33,350 nt of DNA. It comes from a virus. Under the pieces are notes generated by a model. It was not told where the DNA came from. It was given only the letters and a program-made list of their open reading frames with translations, and searched no databases. This document shows, piece after piece, positions 5,913-33,333 of the stretch (its first letter is position 1; the number at the start of each line of letters is the position of its first letter). The DNA lies in the IMG/VR virus record IMGVR_UViG_3300020463_000069, positions 1 to 33,350 of that record. One strand, given 5' to 3'. The position numbers and the translations under genes are program-made.

Positions 5913-6554
5913 ATGCAAATAAAATCAATAAGACCATTTAGTGGGGGTTGGTTACAAGCAAAGTTAAATGATGAGGAGTTAAATTATTTATGGGAAATGT
6001 GCAAAACTCCTAAAAAAAATAATTACAAAGACCGTTTAGCTGGACATAATTATAAAAGTCAGCTTATAGAAGATAAAGACGATTGGTTTTGGGATAATGT
6101 TTTAAGTCATTTATGTAATGAATATGCTTGCACTTATGGAAATCTTGGAGATAGCATTCCAACTAGCCAAAATCACCCTTATCATTTACATTCAATGTGG
6201 GTAAATTATCAAAAAGAAAACGAATTTAATCCAAGACATAGGCACAATAATGCACTTTATAGTTTTGTTGTATGGATGAAAATACCAACTGATTTTCACG
6301 AGCAACGTAAATTAGCAATAGCTGAATCAACTGTTGATTCAATTTCAAATTTTTCCTTTGATTTTTTAAATATATTAGGCCAATCACAAACATTTGTTTA
6401 TGAAATGTGCAAAGATGCGGAGGGTACTTTATTATTTTTTCCAGCAGAATTAAATCATACAGTTTATCCATTTTACAACTGTAAAGAAGATCGAATATCA
6501 ATTTCTGGCAATATCGCTATTGATACCAAGAAAATTCATCAAGCTTCGGTTTGA
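5913..6554 (+). CDS. putative 2-oxoglutarate/Fe(II) oxygenase, 213 aa
   Basis: ATG 5913 to TGA 6552-6554. The C-terminal half matches the cyanophage-type putative 2OG-Fe(II) oxygenase family (2OG-FeII_Oxy_5 / TIGR02466 style): NPRHRHNN at 106-113 with His109 and His111, then YSFVVWMKIP, then GTLLFFPAELNHTVYPF with His182, and ERIS-type DRISISGN with Arg194 for 2-oxoglutarate. This is a double-stranded beta-helix fold. Such enzymes hydroxylate protein, sugar or nucleic-acid substrates; the substrate here is unknown. Its 3' end overlaps the convergent next oxygenase by 16 bases. Family call from motifs, activity inferred. Confidence 0.75.
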   Translation: MQIKSIRPFSGGWLQAKLNDEELNYLWEMCKTPKKNNYKDRLAGHNYKSQLIEDKDDWFWDNVLSHLCNEYACTYGNLGDSIPTSQNHPYHLHSMWVNYQKENEFNPRHRHNNALYSFVVWMKIPTDFHEQRKLAIAESTVDSISNFSFDFLNILGQSQTFVYEMCKDAEGTLLFFPAELNHTVYPFYNCKEDRISISGNIAIDTKKIHQASV

Positions 6555-7120
6555 GTAATACATTCAAACCATCCTGTCGCAATATATTTTGTTTGAGTTG
6601 GACTTACAACTCCATGATGAGTATGAGTCCAGTATGCAGGCCATAAAACTAATCTTCCCTCTACAGCATTTGTAGTAATATCATAATTTGTAAAACGAGT
6701 ACCACCTTTATCAGTAACAGTATTTAAATATAACATCCATACTAAAACTCTTGTTGAATTACCATTATTTTCACAATGTGGATAAAAATAGCCCTGTTTT
6801 GGATTGTATTTTTGAATATTATAACGTGGAGTTAATTGCCAAGGAGCTACTACATCATCTATTTCTGGATGTTTTGTTTTATAATCTTGTAAATATTTTG
6901 CTAAAACAGTATTGATAATTGTGTCAGGCAATGTCCAATTATTAAAGTTTAAGGTTAAATCAGTCGAATCTTTGTGTGTTTTATCTATAACACCTTTATT
7001 AAAAATTTTACCTACTGTGCCTGCTCTTAAATACTCACTTGGAGCTTTATCAAAAAACTCAATAATTGACTTACAATTTTGAGGGCTTAGTGCGTTGTCA
7101 TGAATTTCTATAAAATTCAT
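6539..7120 (-). CDS. prolyl 4-hydroxylase-like 2OG-Fe(II) oxygenase, 193 aa
   Basis: ATG 7120 to TGA 6539-6541. The P4Hc-type iron motif is clear: His115-Cys-Glu117 (PHCENN), a distal His in WTHTHHG (probably His168), and Lys178 in TKYIATGWF for 2-oxoglutarate. Length and order (substrate lid, GYFYPHCE, LVWMLYLN, GGTRFTNYD, LVLWPAYWTHTHHG) fit the marine-phage P4H-like family. It probably hydroxylates a peptide or another viral/host substrate in the cytoplasm. ATGA overlap with the upstream gene, so the two are co-translated. Confidence 0.8.
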   Translation of the reverse strand: MNFIEIHDNALSPQNCKSIIEFFDKAPSEYLRAGTVGKIFNKGVIDKTHKDSTDLTLNFNNWTLPDTIINTVLAKYLQDYKTKHPEIDDVVAPWQLTPRYNIQKYNPKQGYFYPHCENNGNSTRVLVWMLYLNTVTDKGGTRFTNYDITTNAVEGRLVLWPAYWTHTHHGVVSPTQTKYIATGWFECITQTEA

Positions 7121-22351: not shown

Positions 22352-22953
22352 TAAGCCTCTATATCGTTAGTTTCAACTTTCGTTGAAATAGGAATCGAGC
22401 CGACCAAAGTTTTTCCATATACCACAGGAATTGCAGTCCCTGCTCTTGTAGTCTGTTGCACCCCACTAAAAGAAAAAGATTTTATAGGATCTGTTTCTTC
22501 ATCTGGTAGTTCTGGAGTTGGTGTAAGTAAACCAGCAACACCACTTAAGACTAATAACATTCCAATCTTTCCAGACAAAGCCCAAAAATTAATTCCAGCA
22601 CTTCCAAGAATAGGCTCTTTCAATAAACTTATAAAACTCATTTGCCCTCCAAACATCCCCAAACCAATCAAAGCAACTCCAGCTATTATTTTTCCTACAT
22701 TACCAGCACCAGTAACGACAGGTATAATCTTTATATCTAAACCACCGCTAGGGAAATCAAGTAACTCTTCGTCAATATTATGTTCCCCCACATAAACTTT
22801 ATAAAATTGACTAGACATATGTTGTTCTAATCCAGCAAAATTTGCTTTTAAAAAACGTACTGCATCTATTGGTTGATTTATAACAGCTTCGAATTGATTT
22901 TGACCACCACAAAAATTTGCAAGTTCTCCATATAGTCTTACCTTACTTAACAT
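22351..22953 (-). CDS. I: tail assembly protein I, lambda gpI-like, 200 aa
   Basis: ATG 22953 to TAA 22351-22353 (1-base TAATG overlap with J). N-terminus VRLYGELANFCGGQNQFEA and DAVRFLKANF matches the Lambda_tail_I ubiquitin-like domain; then a Gly-rich hydrophobic segment with two hydrophobic stretches (VGKIIAGVALIGLGMFGG; ALSGKIGMLLVLSGVAGLL) and a C-terminus QTTRAGTAIPVVYGKTLVGS typical of gpI. In lambda it is needed for tail tip assembly but its place in the virion is unclear. Neighbours K and J fix the call. Confidence 0.9.
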   Translation of the reverse strand: MLSKVRLYGELANFCGGQNQFEAVINQPIDAVRFLKANFAGLEQHMSSQFYKVYVGEHNIDEELLDFPSGGLDIKIIPVVTGAGNVGKIIAGVALIGLGMFGGQMSFISLLKEPILGSAGINFWALSGKIGMLLVLSGVAGLLTPTPELPDEETDPIKSFSFSGVQQTTRAGTAIPVVYGKTLVGSIPISTKVETNDIEA

Positions 22954-23650
22954 ACCGCAACCTCTTTCCAGTACATTTTACAAGCCATTCCCCATAAAAA
23001 TCTTTTGAACTTAGTCTACCTTCTATATGATGCAATATCATCTGTTGTGGCAATAAAAATATACCAACATGATTTAAACCTTGACTATTTATTGAAAATA
23101 ATAAACTATCACCATGCTCTAATTGTTCATCAGGTTTTAATTCTCTAAAACCTGTATCTTTAAAACATTTATCAAAATATGGATTAACACGAAAACTATC
23201 AGGATCGTTTGGTCTATCCCAATCTCTTAATTTTATGCCTACAGACTCATAATAATCTTTTACTAAAGTCCAACAATCATGAACTCCAAATGCATAATGT
23301 CTACCAATTAAAGGAGCTTTATAACCTGTAGGTTCAAACTCATGCCATTGACCTAATGCAACTGCATATATATACCAAATTTTTTTTGAATTTTCGCAAG
23401 CAGTTAAATCAGCAGAACTTGGAAATGGAGTTTGGGATGGATGTGAATGAAAAACACCAAATATTGTCCCTTGATCTTCTGCATTAGCATAATCTAATGG
23501 ATCAATAATAAAATGATCGTATGTATTAACTGCCATGTTTTTACATCGTATATATCTTTTTCTACCTTTTATAACAACTACTAAACCACAAGCTTCAGAT
23601 GGAAACATGTCCTCTGCGTGTTTTTGTGCTTCAATCTTCCAATTATTCAT
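22943..23650 (-). CDS. K: tail tip protein K: JAMM peptidase plus NlpC/P60 domain, 235 aa
   Basis: I start at ATG 23650 (MNNWKIEAQKHAEDM), the start lambda-type gpK needs; a longer frame up to 23731 overlaps L and adds 27 residues of antisense-like text. The Mov34/JAMM motif is complete: Glu19 (SEACGLV), His68-Ser-His70-Pro, Ser78/79 and Asp81. The second half is NlpC/P60: Cys126 (GVHDCWTL), His194 (LNHVGIF), and a third polar residue near His207/208. Such tail-tip enzymes cut the cell wall or prepare the tip at infection or assembly. Overlaps L by 8 bases and I by 11. Confidence 0.92.
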   Translation of the reverse strand: MNNWKIEAQKHAEDMFPSEACGLVVVIKGRKRYIRCKNMAVNTYDHFIIDPLDYANAEDQGTIFGVFHSHPSQTPFPSSADLTACENSKKIWYIYAVALGQWHEFEPTGYKAPLIGRHYAFGVHDCWTLVKDYYESVGIKLRDWDRPNDPDSFRVNPYFDKCFKDTGFRELKPDEQLEHGDSLLFSINSQGLNHVGIFLLPQQMILHHIEGRLSSKDFYGEWLVKCTGKRLRYVK

Positions 23651-24566
23651 GAAATGATCCGACACCAGGGAATTGTCTAGGTAGAACTTGTCTTGCAGGG
23701 ATCTTGAAATTAGGTAAATCCCATATCGCACTTAACTCAAACTCAACAACTTCTCTATTTTCAACAGACTTACGATCAACAATAAAAACTTGATCTCTAC
23801 TTGTAGCAGCCGTATTTGCAGTAGGATTAACGTAAGCATTATTAATAGTAATATTATTGCCCATATTATTTCCATGTACAGTGCAGTGATATTTTAATGA
23901 TGATGGTGCGTTTGTAGGTACAACAAAAACAGTTTTAGCACCTGATGATCCAGCAGTTCCACTAGCTGTTATACCATCACTATAAGCAGTATCGTTAGTT
24001 TGCCGAAATCCTATAGGATGGTTTGTATTTGTAGAATCACTTTGATCAAAAGTATAAGTTCCACCTTTTACTAAAGTAATTGCTGGTTTTGTTACACCAT
24101 CAAGAGCAAAAACATTACTTCCACCACTTTGTACAACTGTTACGTTATAAGTTTTTGTAACTGGGAAATTAACTGAATCTAGAAACATTGCTAAAGTTTC
24201 TATTCTGGTTAGCTTTGCATTTAACAAATCATTACCAGGTGTGATCTTATTTACCTCAATAAGTATTGTCGAAACTGTAGATAACAAATTACTAACTCTT
24301 AAAACTGGTCTAGCTATTGCATCACTTTGTCCACTTTTTTGATCAAATCCTTCTGCTTCAATAGGCATTGGAGTATAAGTTTTACTGTTAAAAACAATAG
24401 ACCCAGCCCCAGCAGCAGTCATACCAGAATGCCAACAATATGTAGTAGTAACACTATCTGGATTACCTATTGCGTAATGTGTTCCCTCAACAAGTTCAAG
24501 TTCATATAATTGAATTATTGCACTAGGGTTAGGTTTTTGTAATTCACTAATATAAGAATCAGTCAT
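23643..24566 (-). CDS. L: minor tail protein L with inserted cupredoxin-like domain, 307 aa
   Basis: ATG 24566 (ATGA with M) to TAA 23643-23645. Residues 1-137 are the gpL N-terminal fold (YISELQKPNPSAIIQLYELE, then GFDQKSGQSDAIARPVLRVSN, ending in FLDSVNFP). Residues 250-297 are the gpL middle (DRKSVENREVVEFELSAIWD, then LPNFKIPARQVLPRQF). Between them, 138-243 form a cupredoxin-like insert with ligands His183, Cys228, His231 and Met235 (HPIGF; YHCTVHGNNMG). The chain then ends at PGVGSFHE, exactly where lambda gpL goes on with the Cys-rich [4Fe-4S] domain, which is absent; only Cys44 and Cys228 remain. See findings. Confidence 0.88.
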   Translation of the reverse strand: MTDSYISELQKPNPSAIIQLYELELVEGTHYAIGNPDSVTTTYCWHSGMTAAGAGSIVFNSKTYTPMPIEAEGFDQKSGQSDAIARPVLRVSNLLSTVSTILIEVNKITPGNDLLNAKLTRIETLAMFLDSVNFPVTKTYNVTVVQSGGSNVFALDGVTKPAITLVKGGTYTFDQSDSTNTNHPIGFRQTNDTAYSDGITASGTAGSSGAKTVFVVPTNAPSSLKYHCTVHGNNMGNNITINNAYVNPTANTAATSRDQVFIVDRKSVENREVVEFELSAIWDLPNFKIPARQVLPRQFPGVGSFHE

Positions 24567-24931: not shown

Positions 24932-27693
24932 TATGTATAAAGAATCCCTCCAGGTCGTTTTTGTTTAATAAGCTCGGCTTCTATAGCAGTACCTATCATC
25001 TTGCCAAGCTGATTTGCTTTCATTGTATTACCGTCAGCAGATGTACCACTAGCATTCACAGTTACGTTAACAATATTACCGCCTCCTCCTCCAGTAGCTT
25101 CAACTCCCAACTTTCCTTGAGGTGTACGTTTAAGTGGCATAATTGCTTCTGGATAACCAGCTTCAGCCATCAAACCAACACCTCCATTAGCAAAAGGAAA
25201 TAGAGTTGGTTTTCGAACAACTGTTCCACCTTTAGCAAAAGGCACTATGCCATTTTGTCCATACACATTTCCTTTTGCATTAAAGAAATCATCACCAAAG
25301 ATTGAACCGAATAACGGTTTGGTAATTGCTTGTCTGATAAACATTCTTGTCAAATCACTAATAACAGAATTAGCAAAATCACGAAAACTTAATTTACCTG
25401 TCATCACAAATTTGACTAACGCATCTTCCATTTTCATAAATCCATTTACAACTGTATTTTCCATCAGTAACGCAGTACTCTCTAACTCTTCTTTGAAATT
25501 CTTTAATGGCCCTGCTTTTCCAAATTTATTTTCAGTACCATCTCCTCCAAACGCTCCAAACAATACTTTGTCTCCATCAAAAGTAACAAGATTTTCTTCA
25601 AATACTTTATTTATCTCATCAATGGTTGCTTTTAATTTAACTTTTTCTTTTTCACTTAAATCCATTGGAATGCCTAATCCTTGTCCTCCTTGGCTATATT
25701 TTTTGCCCGAATCTAATTGCTTTTGTAACTCATCTCGTAAGTTCTTAAGAAAATTAGCTGAACTTTCACTACCTGTTTTAAGACTTCGTACAGCATCATC
25801 AAATTTATTCATTTCTTTAATAATTTGTTGAATACCTAAAACAACTCCAAATGATATAGCAAAAATCGGATTCTTTAACATTGCTAAATTTAAAATTTTA
25901 ATTGAAGCTGCAAGTTTTTTCACTGTTGCAACTAACCCTACTAACGTCAACCCCATAGTTTTTAATTTGGTAATTACGGCTGCTGCACCAATTGCAATTA
26001 CAAGACTTAAAATTTCTTTTAAGTTTTTAGCTAATGTTTGTAATAAAGGCATTATTATATTTATTCCACTAACTACTGTTCGACCAATAGAAGCTAAAGT
26101 TGGAACAAAATCAATTAATAAATCTGTAAATAGATTTTGAAACTGTGCGCCTAATGGAACTAATCCTTCTCCAATAGCAATTTTTAATCTATTTTGTTGT
26201 ATTAATAATCTTGCCCCTGCCTCTTCATCACTTGCTGCAATTTTTTCTGCTGTTTCTGTAAAGTCATCACCTAATAAACCAATGAATTTACTTAATTCTC
26301 TCAAGCCAACAGTTCCTTTCTTAAGTGCATCTTGTAAATCAGCAGTTGTTGCATAAATATGCTTGTTAGCTTTTTGAAACTGAGTAACGGCTGCTGGAAA
26401 TCTTTCGCCAAGTTGCCCGGAAAGCTCTTCAGCCGACACACGCCCTTTTGAGAATATCTGAACAACGGCTGTTATGGCCGACTTGGCATCTTCTGCCCCA
26501 CCTGCTGTAGCTTTAATAGCAGCATTAACATTAAGGAACGCTTCGGTTGCGTTGTGTATATTTCCACCAGCACCTATGACCGCAGCAGATATTCTGGTAA
26601 TACCTCTTATAGCTATTTCTTGTGGTACGTTTAAATCGTTGGTTGCTTTAGCAGCAGCAGCTAAAGCTATTTTATACGACTTTTGATCTGGAACTATATC
26701 TCTTAGAGCTATCTTTAATTTGTCTAATTGTGCAGTATATTGAGCAGCCCCTGATATTCCACCAACAATAGGAGATGCAATCTGACTAGCTATTAATCCT
26801 CCAGTAAGAGTTCCTTGCTCAAAATCACCACCTGTCATAGCAGCACCAATACCACCAACTAAACCTCCAGCGAATCCAACACCACCACCTACAAAGGCTG
26901 CCCCTGCTAACCCTCTTATGCCTCCTAAAATATTTTGTTTCCGAGAAAGTCTTCCTAATTGTTTATCAACTGCTGCTATATCTCTTGTTAATTGTTTAAA
27001 CCTTTTGCTACCAATTTCAACACCATTTCTAAGAGTTTCTAAAGCTGCTCTTTGTGCATTTAGAGAATTGACGTTTTTACCTCCAGCTTGTGCAGCAGCT
27101 AAAATATCTTTTCTAACTTTTGAAACAGATTGACCTAATCTTTGGAATTTAGAATCTACCTGAGATAAACCTATTTGTTGAATTTGTTCTGCTAAACCAC
27201 TCATTGGTCTTATCTGGGCATCAGCACTACCTAAAAATGCACGGCCACTTGCAGCCATGTTTGCTCTCTTTGTTATCTCATCTGCACGTTGAGAAAAGCC
27301 TAAAAAACTTCCAGTACCTCTTTCTAAAGCTTCATTACGACCTAAGTTCCCTCTGCGTTGATATTCTTTTATTGCAGCAGTTGTAACCCGATTTAATTTA
27401 GGGTTGCTCATTTCAGAGGATACATTTCTTATCGCTAGTCCTAACTGGTTATATGCAGCACTACCCATTGCGACATTACTACGCAATGTTTTAAGAAGAT
27501 TAATTTGAGCTTTAAACTCATTTTGTGATTTAAATTTAGTTGTATTATTTATTTCTTGAGCAAATGATTTAACTTCTCGTGTCGTTAACTTTAAACCTTT
27601 AGATAAATTATTAAAATCTTTTCCAACACTTTTGAGCAAAGGGAAACCCTTCATCTCAAGTTGTAATAAAATCTTATCTATTTTTTGTGCCAT
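24931..27693 (-). CDS. H: tape measure protein, 920 aa
   Basis: ATG 27693 with Shine-Dalgarno AAGGAG 11 bases upstream; stop TAA 24931-24933. The N-terminal 250 residues are helical/charged; about 260-300 is a Gly-rich hydrophobic segment (GLAGAAFVGGGVGFAGGLVGG). The tape-measure N-terminal domain (TIGR02675 style) runs to about 490 with VSAEELSGQLGERFPAAV. A hydrophobic block follows at about 555-640, and a lambda H C-terminal domain (MEDALVKFVMTGKLSFRDFA, TRMFIRQAITKPLFG) lies near 760-800. At roughly 0.15 nm per residue the tail should be about 135-140 nm (inference). Confidence 0.92.
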   Translation of the reverse strand: MAQKIDKILLQLEMKGFPLLKSVGKDFNNLSKGLKLTTREVKSFAQEINNTTKFKSQNEFKAQINLLKTLRSNVAMGSAAYNQLGLAIRNVSSEMSNPKLNRVTTAAIKEYQRRGNLGRNEALERGTGSFLGFSQRADEITKRANMAASGRAFLGSADAQIRPMSGLAEQIQQIGLSQVDSKFQRLGQSVSKVRKDILAAAQAGGKNVNSLNAQRAALETLRNGVEIGSKRFKQLTRDIAAVDKQLGRLSRKQNILGGIRGLAGAAFVGGGVGFAGGLVGGIGAAMTGGDFEQGTLTGGLIASQIASPIVGGISGAAQYTAQLDKLKIALRDIVPDQKSYKIALAAAAKATNDLNVPQEIAIRGITRISAAVIGAGGNIHNATEAFLNVNAAIKATAGGAEDAKSAITAVVQIFSKGRVSAEELSGQLGERFPAAVTQFQKANKHIYATTADLQDALKKGTVGLRELSKFIGLLGDDFTETAEKIAASDEEAGARLLIQQNRLKIAIGEGLVPLGAQFQNLFTDLLIDFVPTLASIGRTVVSGINIIMPLLQTLAKNLKEILSLVIAIGAAAVITKLKTMGLTLVGLVATVKKLAASIKILNLAMLKNPIFAISFGVVLGIQQIIKEMNKFDDAVRSLKTGSESSANFLKNLRDELQKQLDSGKKYSQGGQGLGIPMDLSEKEKVKLKATIDEINKVFEENLVTFDGDKVLFGAFGGDGTENKFGKAGPLKNFKEELESTALLMENTVVNGFMKMEDALVKFVMTGKLSFRDFANSVISDLTRMFIRQAITKPLFGSIFGDDFFNAKGNVYGQNGIVPFAKGGTVVRKPTLFPFANGGVGLMAEAGYPEAIMPLKRTPQGKLGVEATGGGGGNIVNVTVNASGTSADGNTMKANQLGKMIGTAIEAELIKQKRPGGILYT

Positions 27694-28381
27694 TATTTTT
27701 TAGTCTCCTTATTTATCTCTTTAAGAGCAGCATTCTCCATGATCCGTAATCCTTCTAACATTTCTTCTCTATCCTCAACGTGATAAAGATCAAAGAGTCC
27801 TCCTTGTAATAATAATACCTCATATTTTAATCCTACAAACCCTCCGAAGGAAGTAGACCATTGTGTACTCATTCTAAGAAACATTTCCACAATATCCCAA
27901 TTAAAATCATAGACTTCATAATCATTATTATTTTCTTGTTTCTTGGGCAATTTTGATTCAGCTACTCCTAGTTTTCTTAACAGATCAGCAGATGTATCAA
28001 TAACTTCTTTGCTACCGCCAGCCCAATGAACGGCAGCACCTCTTAGTTTTTTACTTGCAAATTACTATAAAAATCTCTATAACCATCTGTTATTCCTTTG
28101 ACCATATCAGGATCTTCAGAAATTTCTAATAATTCTTTTTCTGAAAATGGAATATCTTTCCCATCTTCATCGGTATAATCAACCCAACCAGCAACAACCT
28201 TTTTTAAAGTTTGCACAGGATCTAAAACTTCTTCTTCAAACTTTTCAAGCTCTGAAGTCTTTAATCTAATAAATTTAACTGTAAAAGTAATTGATTCAAA
28301 TTCACCAATCTTGTCATCAGAAGGTTTAGTGACTTTTACAGGCCAAGGATAGACAGCAAGTTTTTTCTTGATAAATGCCAT
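27693..28381 (-). CDS. GT: tail assembly chaperone fusion gpGT made by -1 frameshift
   Basis: join of 28381-28046 and 28046-27693 (minus strand), 229 aa. The zero-frame product ends at TAA 28043-28045. One slip back on A-AAA-AAC (28046-28052) gives V-K-K-L-R-G-A-A-V-H-W-A-G-G, which runs on without a stop to 27693-27695. The T part carries a DUF1799-like segment (STQWSTSFGGFVGLKYEVLLL). A naive gene call at TTG 27950 covers only part of this and lacks a good start. As in lambda, gpG and gpGT should bind the tape measure before tail polymerisation; the gene sits directly upstream of the tape measure (TAATG overlap). Confidence 0.88.
28011..28052 (-). promoter_or_regulatory. -1 programmed ribosomal frameshift signal
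   Basis: Minus-strand heptamer AAAAAAC at 28046-28052 in the proper frame (xxA AAA AAC), directly before the gpG stop codon. An 8-base spacer (TAAGAGGT) separates it from a 7-bp stem, GCTGCCG (28031-28037) with CGGTAGC (28011-28017), one G-U pair, 13-base loop. Confidence 0.85.
28043..28381 (-). CDS. G: tail assembly chaperone gpG, 112 aa
   Basis: I use ATG 28381 (MAFIKKKLAVYPWPV); a longer frame starts at TTG 28396 but is less likely. Stop TAA 28043-28045. The product is a small beta/alpha protein (SITFTVKFIRLKTSELEKFEEE, PVQTLKKVVAGWVDYTDEDGKDI), typical for the phage tail assembly chaperone (TAC/G) family. The major product of the frameshifting pair; see gpGT. No clear Shine-Dalgarno. Confidence 0.8.
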   Translation of the reverse strand: MAFIKKKLAVYPWPVKVTKPSDDKIGEFESITFTVKFIRLKTSELEKFEEEVLDPVQTLKKVVAGWVDYTDEDGKDIPFSEKELLEISEDPDMVKGITDGYRDFYSNLQVKN

Positions 28382-28436: not shown

Positions 28437-29399
28437 CTAAGTGTAAATTAACGAAAATTCGTCATTCCCTGCTGCGCTTGGAACTAATGTATAAGGAATT
28501 TCCATTGTTACAATTCCATCAGAATCTCCATAAGTAATATCACCTAAGTCTGCTTTGGTAGAAGTAAATTGTACTTTATGACCAGCAGAAGTTCCATGTA
28601 AAAACGCTAAATTTCCTAATGTGCCATCTGTCTGTGCAGCAGTAAAGAAATCCTTAACGCCTGGCTTTACAGCATCAATAACAACTGAACCCCCAGCCGC
28701 CCTATCAGTAAGCAAAACTTCTTTAGTGCTTGTACTTCCGATTACTTCTCTATAAATAATACTATTACCTAAATCCATTGATAATGAATTTAAACCAGCT
28801 TGATGTCCATGAATATTAAAACCAGATGTATTACCAGCTTTAAATAATAATGGAGTTGGCTGATCATTGTAAGTAGGAGTTGTCATTGAAGACAAATCTA
28901 TTGGAGTTTCGTAAATTCCAGTAAACGAAAAATTCAGCTTCGGAATTTGTCCAACCGCAGCTTCTAATGAAACATTTCCTCGACACCCTCGAATTTTATG
29001 TAAGACATTCTCATTAGTTGCACTACCACCTATTTCTACAAAAAGAACAACAGAACTAAAAGCTGCACTTACTGGGGTATATGTGACAGATGTCCCCGAA
29101 GCGACAGTTTCACTTAAGCCACACGCAAGTAACGCTTTAGAATAGCCAGGAGCCGTCCCTGCCGCCCCGGAGCCTACTAATTCGCACGAAAACGATACTT
29201 CTACTCTTGAGTTTGCTAATAGCTGTTCTGATGCACCTAGATATGGTCTTACATAATCTCTTGAGACAACATCACTAGCTATTGGAGTAACACTCAATTC
29301 AGTTACCAATACAGCATCTTGTCCAGTAGGAGTAGTGTTATCGTTGTAACTACTTTCTGTCTCAATCAGAACCGACTCTTTCTTTGTCTGTAGTGCCAT
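28437..29399 (-). CDS. V: major tail tube protein, 320 aa
   Basis: ATG 29399 with Shine-Dalgarno AGAGGT about 8 bases upstream (inside the small gene before it); stop TAA 28437-28439. MALQTKKESVLIETESSYN with a beta-rich body (SRVEVSFSCELVGSG, GNVSLEAAVGQIPKLNFSFTG) fits the phage_tube family; the C-terminal IPYTLVPSAAGNDEFSLIYT is the usual end. It follows the terminator gene and precedes G, as lambda V does. Long for a bare tube subunit, so it probably carries an extra beta domain. Confidence 0.85.
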   Translation of the reverse strand: MALQTKKESVLIETESSYNDNTTPTGQDAVLVTELSVTPIASDVVSRDYVRPYLGASEQLLANSRVEVSFSCELVGSGAAGTAPGYSKALLACGLSETVASGTSVTYTPVSAAFSSVVLFVEIGGSATNENVLHKIRGCRGNVSLEAAVGQIPKLNFSFTGIYETPIDLSSMTTPTYNDQPTPLLFKAGNTSGFNIHGHQAGLNSLSMDLGNSIIYREVIGSTSTKEVLLTDRAAGGSVVIDAVKPGVKDFFTAAQTDGTLGNLAFLHGTSAGHKVQFTSTKADLGDITYGDSDGIVTMEIPYTLVPSAAGNDEFSLIYT

Positions 29400-30870: not shown

Positions 30871-33333
30871 TTAAGTAGCGAAACAAAATGCTCCAGCCTG
30901 ACGAATAGCGTAGTCTATGTCCTGGAGCGCAATTATCCTGACTGTACCAGCAGTTGCACCAGCGTATGGATCGACTGTTAGATCCAATCCAGACCACATA
31001 CCCACAATGAACTGACTAAAGTCACCGAAGATTGCATCGTTGTTTAGAAGTTGATTTGAAACAATAGCTTCATAACCATTAATTTGATTATTATCAAACA
31101 CAAACATACCTGTGTTTGTAGCTTTTTCTGTTGATTTCAAAGCACCTCTAGCAGAAGCATTAACAAGATACTTCATAGAACCACCCTCTGCATTTGCTAC
31201 TGCAACATCGGTTTCCATCCCAATATATTCTGGAAATGTCCCGAATGTTGTTAAGGACTGAGAGCCAATACCACTTGTATCTTTTAGACCTAATGGCTGG
31301 TTAGAAGAACCTGTTCCGTAGATAGCAGTACGATCTAGCTCAAGAGCAATCTTCTTAGCAATGTCATCTCTAACAAATGCTTCGATGTCTATAGAAGACT
31401 GAAGAAGAGTTTTTCTTGTAAAATCAGTAAAAGCACCAACCGTCTTTGGTGTCATTGAAATCTGCGTAAAGCTCTGCTGACCCTCTGTAGGCGCACCGCC
31501 CTCTCCTACCCAGTAAGCAGAAGTTGTACCGTCTTGCTTCGGAATGCTGATATTCCCTTCTAGCCCAGTAAGCATGGTCACCCCAGCTTGCATGATAGCC
31601 ATTTTATTTCTCAAAATTTCTATGAAAGAACCGCTGAGAAGCTCTGTGCTGACTAGATTTCCTCCATCAGCAGCAGTACCAACATTTAAATCCCTCTTAA
31701 GGACTTCGTTAGGAACTATTAAACCTTTAGCTGGTCTGCCATATCTAGAAGCAGCTTCGTCAGAAACTTCTCTTTCAAATGATGCAGCTTCTTGTGCAGC
31801 CCTATCGCTAGGATTTGCTAAAGCATTGATAGCTCTTAGGAAAGAATATCTTTTTGTTTCTTTCTTTTCTAAAAACTCTTTAGATTCTTTTGTTTCAATC
31901 ATGTCGGTAGAACGAATTGGAGTAGCTTTTTTATTTTTAACAAGATCTAAAATGGCTGATCTTGCTTCTGTAGCAGATTTATTACTCTTAATAAGAGATT
32001 CTGTTAAATCTTCTGCTCCGTATTCTGAGAACTCACGACAAGTTGTAGTGATTTCAGCAACACGAGCATTGTTCTCATCTAAAGCACGTTGTACTTCAGC
32101 TTGAACATCAATTTCTACTGACGGCTTCTGTTCCACCGCAGCTTCTTTAGTTGTTTCTTCCATAGATGGATTAGATTGTGCGGTGGTAACCGCTGAACGA
32201 TCCTCTTTTTGAGAGGAGTTAACATTAATGATAATGTCTTCTTCTTCTAAAGTAACACTTTCTGATGAAATATTCTCTACTAAAGATCTACCAAAGCCAA
32301 CGGAATTGTCTGCCGGGATAGTTGCCAAGCTAACTTCATGGGGTGTCCATTTAGTCGCCCTAAGTCCTGTGTCCGTTTCTTCCACTTCGTCCAGACTGTA
32401 TCCAAACGAGATTCCACGGAATATTCCGTCTTTAACGTCTTCTAAGACTTCTGTAGCAAATTTAGAGCGAGAGAAGCGGATTTTAGCGTAACCGCGCTTG
32501 TCGTTGTCCGAAATATACGCAGATTCCACTACCCCTAGAACGCGATTGGGATCATGGTTGAAGAGAAAAGGTGCTGCTCCATTTAATCTTTCTAGATTTG
32601 CACTTCCTCTTTCGTGGCTTAACACTTCGTCACCAAAAAATCTACGAACTGGAATTTCCGATGAAAACGGAAACTCAAATGTTCTTGCTTTTTTCTGATC
32701 AAAGTCAGTAACTTCTTTTCTTTGAAGCTTATCTTCCGCTGAAATTACTCTGATTGGAGAAATCTTAGTCAAAGTAGAAAACTTATGACCTACCTTTCTA
32801 TCAGTAGCTTCGCCATTCCTATAAAGAGTAATTAAGGCAGCAGGGTCATCTGCTGTTCCTGTGATCGTGAAAGAAGAGTCTGGTACATCAATAGAACCAT
32901 CTCTAACAATACGAGTAATTTTTCCTCGTGCTGTACCTCCGCTTGAAGACCAAGAAACAAAATCCCCTGTCTTCAATGCGTCAGGTGCTGCACGTTCTTC
33001 AGTCTGTTCAGACATAGTACGCTCCCTAGCTTTTTTGATTTGATTAGACTTGGTTCCAGACCAAGACTGCCCTGCGTCTCCGCCCCAAGCAGCCCAACTG
33101 ACCCTCCCATTGCTGGGATAGCCGTCTTCGCCCTTGCGGAAACCTTTGCCCGATTTGTCCGACTCGTGCCGAGCAAACCACGCATTCATAGTTATAACAG
33201 TATCTGGACTTAGCTGGTCACCGCTTAATATTTGTGTTGCTCTTGTTCTTGCATCATCTGTACCTCCATCTTCTCCATCTTTCTTCCATTCTCGATATCG
33301 TTTAGCTTCTACTCTCATTCCCTCCGTGGGCAT
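30871..33333 (-). CDS. capsid polyprotein: Tudor-like segment + S78 prohead protease + scaffold + HK97-fold major capsid, 820 aa or more
   Basis: Stop TAA 30871-30873; ATG at 33333, but the frame stays open to the right edge (codons for VDIDL precede this ATG), so the true start may lie outside. Residues 1-105: segment with ARTRATQILSGDQLSPDTV and GRVSWAAWGGDAGQSW, seen next to phage head proteases. 119-192: DUF2945/Tudor-like piece (GDFVSWSSSGGTARGKI, HKFSTL). 217-350: S78 protease with His260 (FNHD) and Ser309 (GISFGY). 350-510: charged, helical scaffold/delta-like region. 515-820: major capsid (SIPKQDGTTSAYWVGEG, LDRTAIYGTGSSNQPLG). Self-cleavage is expected. Confidence 0.88.
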   Translation of the reverse strand: MPTEGMRVEAKRYREWKKDGEDGGTDDARTRATQILSGDQLSPDTVITMNAWFARHESDKSGKGFRKGEDGYPSNGRVSWAAWGGDAGQSWSGTKSNQIKKARERTMSEQTEERAAPDALKTGDFVSWSSSGGTARGKITRIVRDGSIDVPDSSFTITGTADDPAALITLYRNGEATDRKVGHKFSTLTKISPIRVISAEDKLQRKEVTDFDQKKARTFEFPFSSEIPVRRFFGDEVLSHERGSANLERLNGAAPFLFNHDPNRVLGVVESAYISDNDKRGYAKIRFSRSKFATEVLEDVKDGIFRGISFGYSLDEVEETDTGLRATKWTPHEVSLATIPADNSVGFGRSLVENISSESVTLEEEDIIINVNSSQKEDRSAVTTAQSNPSMEETTKEAAVEQKPSVEIDVQAEVQRALDENNARVAEITTTCREFSEYGAEDLTESLIKSNKSATEARSAILDLVKNKKATPIRSTDMIETKESKEFLEKKETKRYSFLRAINALANPSDRAAQEAASFEREVSDEAASRYGRPAKGLIVPNEVLKRDLNVGTAADGGNLVSTELLSGSFIEILRNKMAIMQAGVTMLTGLEGNISIPKQDGTTSAYWVGEGGAPTEGQQSFTQISMTPKTVGAFTDFTRKTLLQSSIDIEAFVRDDIAKKIALELDRTAIYGTGSSNQPLGLKDTSGIGSQSLTTFGTFPEYIGMETDVAVANAEGGSMKYLVNASARGALKSTEKATNTGMFVFDNNQINGYEAIVSNQLLNNDAIFGDFSQFIVGMWSGLDLTVDPYAGATAGTVRIIALQDIDYAIRQAGAFCFAT

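Follow-up and report, generated by a model that had tools for sequence, protein, structure and literature searches.

The tail genes of a marine phage raise the question of how the second of two overlapping chaperone-like reading frames is translated, and whether a stop codon standing directly behind the putative slip site between them belongs to the signal. We analyzed the IMG/VR virus record IMGVR_UViG_3300020463_000069 over its 33,350 bases (35% G+C; hereafter the window). Its minus strand carries a lambda-like tail module in which a head gene (30871-33333) is followed by a tail terminator, a tail protein, G, T, a 920-aa ORF and gpM/L/K/I/J-like genes; the lambda letters are names that we presume from gene order and PHROG matches. 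As in tail assembly chaperones, two overlapping ORFs, the second in the -1 frame, lie between the tail protein gene and the putative tape measure gene (Table 1). The T part had been called DUF1799-like from its letters, and this held: it scored 43 bits against PF08809, above the gathering cut-off of 26, and also matched PHROG 680 (E 4.6e-20).

Table 1 Features of the G/T region in the window, in the order of translation.
Feature	Position	Strand	Evidence or remark
Tail protein ORF upstream of G	28437..29399	-	PHROG 290 (tail), E 9.9e-23
Gene G-like ORF, tail assembly chaperone, 112 aa + TAA	28043..28381	-	PHROG 569 (tail), E 6.5e-10; homologues; product of non-shifting ribosomes
Slippery heptamer A_AAA_AAC, in G phase	28046..28052	-	X_XXA_AAC in 318/319 junctions, AAAAAAT in 1
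0-frame stop TAA, adjoining the heptamer	28043..28045	-	Abutting in 304/319 loci and 88/102 clusters
Putative stimulatory stem-loop, 8 bp (5' arm 28038-28031, 3' arm 28017-28010, loop 28030-28018)	28010..28038	-	Codon-preserving shuffles; pairing in relatives
-1 frame T part, 118 codons + TAA, expected only as G-T fusion	27693..28049	-	Open frame 28049 to 27696
DUF1799 domain of the T part	27714..27923	-	PF08809, E 5.3e-11, residues 43-112 of the T-part translation
Large ORF downstream of G-T, putative tape measure protein, 920 aa	24931..27693	-	Position and size only

Three further observations were made in the window. The 820-aa head ORF matched families of both head maturation proteases and major head proteins (PHROG 617, E 1e-157; PHROG 80 and 133), and protease and capsid appear to be fused in it. 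The gpK-like ORF (22943-23731, minus), whose start is listed as GTG, overlaps the gpL-like ORF (23643-24566, minus) by 89 bases, and its true start may be internal. Two ORFs with matches to 2OG-Fe(II) oxygenase families lie on opposite strands, at 5913-6554 (plus) and 6539-7120 (minus).

Gene G ends on the minus strand with GTA AAA AAC TAA, that is, with a heptamer in the right frame and the gpG stop directly after it, as the initial annotation had described. That annotation also gave a 7-bp stem with a 13-base loop behind an 8-base spacer. Stem (28037-28031 with 28017-28011) and loop were recovered as such, but an extra pair, T28038-A28010, lengthens the stem to 8 bp and shortens the spacer to 7 nt. 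Likewise, the -1 frame runs without a stop into the DUF1799 part, for 118 codons rather than the 117 counted earlier.

We then considered how much of this could arise by chance, or by a sequencing error in one contig. The window is AT-rich, and the decamer AAAAAACTRA, expected 1.04 times in shuffles and found once, would by itself be unsurprising. The stem, on the other hand, was reached in 0 of 100 shuffles, and of the 54 XXXYYYZ heptamers that stand in phase in 16 minus-strand ORFs, none but the G/T one comes within 10 codons of the stop of its ORF. Against dinucleotide shuffles, the fold of the 49 nt behind the stop was only moderately better (z -1.58, 14/200 as good); when shuffles kept the T protein and its codons, the window fold at offset +8 (-13.6 against a mean of -6.5) was equalled by none of 200. 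Phase, position and stem speak against an accident, and the decisive support is conservation in relatives, which refutes this explanation and leaves it with practically no probability. The junction cassette is confirmed as an observation.

Our first scans gave 11 distinct relatives (L001-L009, L013 and L014; L010-L012 are contigs of L001-L003), and in all 11 the T frame was open and A_AAA_AAC was followed by a stop, TAA or TAG. In a profile scan of 80 loci, a stop directly followed the heptamer in all 79 readable junctions (L094 is cut), with GGGAAAC in 66 and AAAAAAC in 13, and TAA in 62, TGA in 13 and TAG in 4. Seven GenBank phages and phage T1 agreed (8/8 with heptamer and abutting stop). 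The full survey covered 327 loci including the window, with L010-L012, the lambda locus L022, L171 and L172 excluded beforehand; it does not count T1, HK97 or the relatives of lambda and HK97, which were added afterwards. A tandem-slip heptamer was kept in 319 of the 327 loci (AAAAAAC 217, GGGAAAC 101, AAAAAAT 1). In 14 loci more than one heptamer qualified; the one closest to the stop was then used, and in each of these loci it was X_XXA_AAC at the expected place. The X_XXY_YYZ heptamer of a chaperone-type signal is thus present in the right phase, within the overlap and in the homologues. Homologues with separate G and T and no heptamer, the outcome named beforehand as one that would speak against frameshifting, were looked for and not found.

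The eight loci without a qualifying heptamer are of several kinds. Three (L094, L271 and L300) come from short pieces or sit at the end of a contig. L242 carries AAAAAAC TGA, although its T frame is broken, and in L121 G and T show no overlap. The remaining three (L190-L192, near 1490-1510), which are close to T1-like phages, read A_AAA_GTC_TAA; they have lost the second slip codon and kept the stop and the following Leu-Arg, and perhaps slip by single-tRNA slippage. No AAG heptamer was found in the 319 junctions surveyed, although AAG is more slippery in E. coli. In a separate comparison, the T part of L006 was 87% identical to that of the window and its G 43%, with a sharp fall at the slippery site, as if G had been exchanged there; this apparent mosaic boundary has left heptamer, stop and stem intact.

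The run of six As in the window heptamer could also suggest that the polymerase, not the ribosome, slips and produces a fusion mRNA. However, 101 of the 319 junctions carry GGGAAAC, which is unfit for polymerase slippage on an A run, and the heptamer type changes 13 times on the tree. Since AAAAAAC and GGGAAAC both fit tandem ribosomal slippage, and since the downstream stem is under selection (below), we reject transcriptional slippage as highly improbable.

A further possibility is that T is translated separately, by reinitiation or coupling after the G stop, and GenBank annotators do often draw T as its own ORF with an internal start. In the window, no ATG, GTG or TTG occurs in T before codon 35 from the heptamer, and no ATG before codon 57, which lies inside the DUF1799 domain. 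Across 102 clusters (70% T identity), the first ATG, GTG or TTG comes at a median of codon 30 and the first ATG at codon 54; by codon 10, any start codon is present in 12 clusters and ATG in 4. Differences between relatives in T codons 4-16 fall mostly on the third position (2967, 2949 and 8121 at positions 1, 2 and 3), indicating that the conserved codons ahead of the first possible start are read in the T frame. An independent start would moreover leave the conservation of the heptamer without a reason. We therefore rejected it, its late start codons and the coding periodicity upstream of them making it very improbable.

Next, we tested RNA folding in 45-nt windows against shuffles that preserved protein and codon content in the 102 clusters. 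The signal was strongest at +2 (mean z -1.39, p 7e-13), where 38% of the clusters fell in their own best 5%; it decayed through +8 (z -1.12) and +14 (z -0.26) to about zero, except for a weak bump at +50 to +62. Clustering at 50% gave a similar value (z -1.50, p 2.7e-9, n=68). Each of the seven inner pairs of the window stem can form in between 70 and 101 of 102 distinct close rows of the alignment; the outer eighth, possible in 42 rows, is not a conserved pair. Stems of different sequence occur at about the same place in L016, L017 and L019. The distance from the heptamer to the first paired base ranges from 0 to 15 nt in the predicted folds, so that the predictions do not fix the exact spacing. 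A downstream stimulatory structure, frequent but not universal in chaperone signals, is therefore present here, whereas a Shine-Dalgarno-like upstream stimulator, as in dnaX, gave at most a weak signal (z -0.26, p 0.018, motif in 20/102).

Together, the comparison of relatives showed a tandem-slip heptamer, a stem-loop under selection 7 nt downstream, and a -1 frame under coding constraint without a usable start of its own. The frameshift reading of the initial annotation is backed by the conserved heptamer and by the selected fold. We estimate at roughly 93% the probability that the window junction is a -1 programmed ribosomal frameshift signal of a siphovirus tail assembly chaperone, of the lambda gpG/gpGT kind and of DUF1799 type. 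Most ribosomes would read AAC and terminate at the TAA behind it, with gpG as the product. A few per cent would slip back by one base, with tRNA-Lys and tRNA-Asn re-pairing on AAA AAC while the stem resists unwinding, and would go on to read CTA and make gpGT, which would link the tape measure protein and the tail tube protein. The heptamer had been called ideal, and this did not hold for bacteria: passages of Atkins 2016 (PMC5009743) describe AAAAAAC-type heptamers as weak in E. coli. Tandem slippage on a weak heptamer would yield a small gpGT share, and a weak heptamer suits such a share; the same review gives a molar ratio of 30:1 as crucial in lambda, and two tested HK97-like cases shift at 6 and 7% (Antonov 2013, PMC3711429).

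We then asked about the stop. Its distance from the heptamer was 0 codons in 304 of the 319 loci, 1 in 6, 3 in 1, 7 in 2, 8 in 1, 9 in 3, 11 in 1 and 18 in 1. Some sites stand under two locus numbers, so counts by T-identity cluster matter more: the stop abuts in 144/158 clusters at 90%, 88/102 at 70%, 58/68 at 50% and 35/41 at 40%. The alignment queries started with the heptamer-encoded residues, which could favour heptamer-bearing loci. The PF08809 profile model lies downstream of the heptamer and gives a less biased figure: in its 53 loci (L118-L170), 39 of 52 readable junctions had the abutting stop, with X_XXA_AAC in 51 and AAAAAAT in 1. The stop had been noted as unusually close, which is true against lambda and HK97, where it comes five codons on; within the DUF1799 family it is the rule.

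The abutting stop was far above background. Downstream, 122 of 5100 codons (2.4%) in the 102 clusters are 0-frame stops, against 86% at the first codon. Given a CTN leucine at T codon 3, 13.5% would be expected (binomial p 2.8e-61, a value that ignores relatedness). CTG was followed by A in 50 of 50 clusters, giving TGA where TGG would be Trp, whereas of the 37 clusters with CTA, 27 continue with A, giving TAA, and 10 with G, giving TAG (Fisher p 8.7e-5). This pattern tracks stop codons and not one sequence, indicating that a stop is selected for. Among the clusters whose stop abuts, T codon 4 encodes various amino acids (T, R, K, I, E, S, A and M). On the tree, stop presence changed 8 times and stop identity 20 times; the tree was made without the trait's own columns, from only 116 columns, with many forks unresolved. 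No weak-terminator context was found after the stop, where the base is mixed and belongs to T codon 4. These results suggest that the signal includes a stop immediately behind the slip site.

A stop at this place is not required for frameshifting, as 14 of the 102 clusters have the same heptamer with the stop 1 to 18 codons later. Six loci (L120, L145, L158, L161, L163 and L166) are prophages that group together on the tree (support 92); they retain AAAAAAC and have the stop 8-18 codons on. For judging what the stop does, this group offers a ready-made comparison.

What would the stop do? Since it is the next codon after the slip site, a release factor might compete directly with late (E/P-site) slippage, and the abutting stop could then act as a gate that holds the gpGT share low and steady. 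We tentatively propose, as a possibility short of even odds, that selection maintains the stop behind the weak AAC heptamer of DUF1799 chaperone genes as a functional element of the signal, in which competition between RF1/RF2 and E/P-site slippage sets gpG:gpGT. Sections of Mathew 2015 (PMC4373837) report that a stop after the HIV heptamer cut frameshifting in bacteria and that RF2 overexpression abolished it; part of another study (PMC7544508) describes ribosomes stalled at stops that can shift frame in E. coli. The HIV-heptamer precedent opposes a stop that boosts slippage and so favours, with modest confidence, a gate that keeps gpGT low. If the gate is real, the gpG:gpGT ratio would vary with how much termination capacity the infected cell has, and tail assembly with it.

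The abutting stop may equally be no part of the signal, with only heptamer and stem of consequence and gpG simply having to end there, or with nothing in favour of longer tails, a reading that rivals the gate and leaves the frameshift untouched. We hold this plausible, though also below even odds, and gpG merely ending at the slip site is at least as likely as the gate. The 14 clusters without the stop, six of them in the one prophage tree group, are in its favour, as is a stem signal that is similar in abutting (z -1.41, n=88) and non-abutting clusters (z -1.23, n=14). It is harder to reconcile with 88 of 102 clusters over a 2.4% background and with a stop whose identity changed repeatedly yet remained a stop. 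Five-codon tails are, moreover, tolerated in other chaperone families, in 80/80 lambda relatives and in 79/79 readable of 80 HK97 relatives, which are near-clonal (38 and 31 distinct stretches) and amount to close to two independent observations. A diverse control of PF06223 lambda-type T parts was found in only 2 of 274 genomes and was unusable.

In the literature searched, whose reach did not include the survey of Xu, Hendrix and Duda 2004, we found no family-wide statement on the abutting stop and no paper that joins DUF1799 with frameshifting. The abutting stop is in print for Burkholderia phage KL1 (in part of PMC3483164) and for Acinetobacter phage Loki and, with the same motif, IME_AB3 (in part of PMC5313236); these are single-genome notes, likened to our family by slip site and stop. 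The same heptamers are mentioned for phiCbK and Colossus (a passage of PMC3556154) and for haloviruses HCTV-1 and HCTV-2 (PMC5009743, likewise in part). In the SEA-PHAGES data of the PRFect preprint (PMC10274946), slip site and stop lie 26 nt apart on average. For annotation, an X_XXA_AAC directly before the G stop together with DUF1799 in the -1 frame can serve as a rule, as GenBank records often split such genes. The family, including phage T1, also offers a large natural set for the competition between termination and frameshifting at a bacterial slip site.

Among known systems, lambda G/GT shares the gene order, the -1 direction, the short G with a long fusion and a site before the tape measure gene. 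It differs in its heptamer, G_GGA_AAG (a different one, as had been pointed out), in a stop five codons on, and in a T part of another Pfam family, PF06223 (Phage_tail_T). Escherichia phage T1, whose junction reads A_AAA_AAC_TAA, Synechococcus phage S-CBS1 and Edwardsiella phage eiAU have a related T part and X_XXA_AAC followed directly by a stop, but differ in stem sequence; T1 and eiAU infect enterobacteria. Further afield, cases described in parts of PMC4373837 also have a stop directly after the slippery sequence but involve eukaryotic ribosomes and unrelated genes. Autoregulation of prfB (RF2), as outlined in PMC5009743, is alike in an A-site stop at the slip point and in release-factor competition, and differs in a +1 shift, another slip site and a bacterial gene. 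The window element is thus an ordinary member of a known siphophage kind; what is of wider interest is the family-wide abutting stop, of which single-phage cases were already in print.
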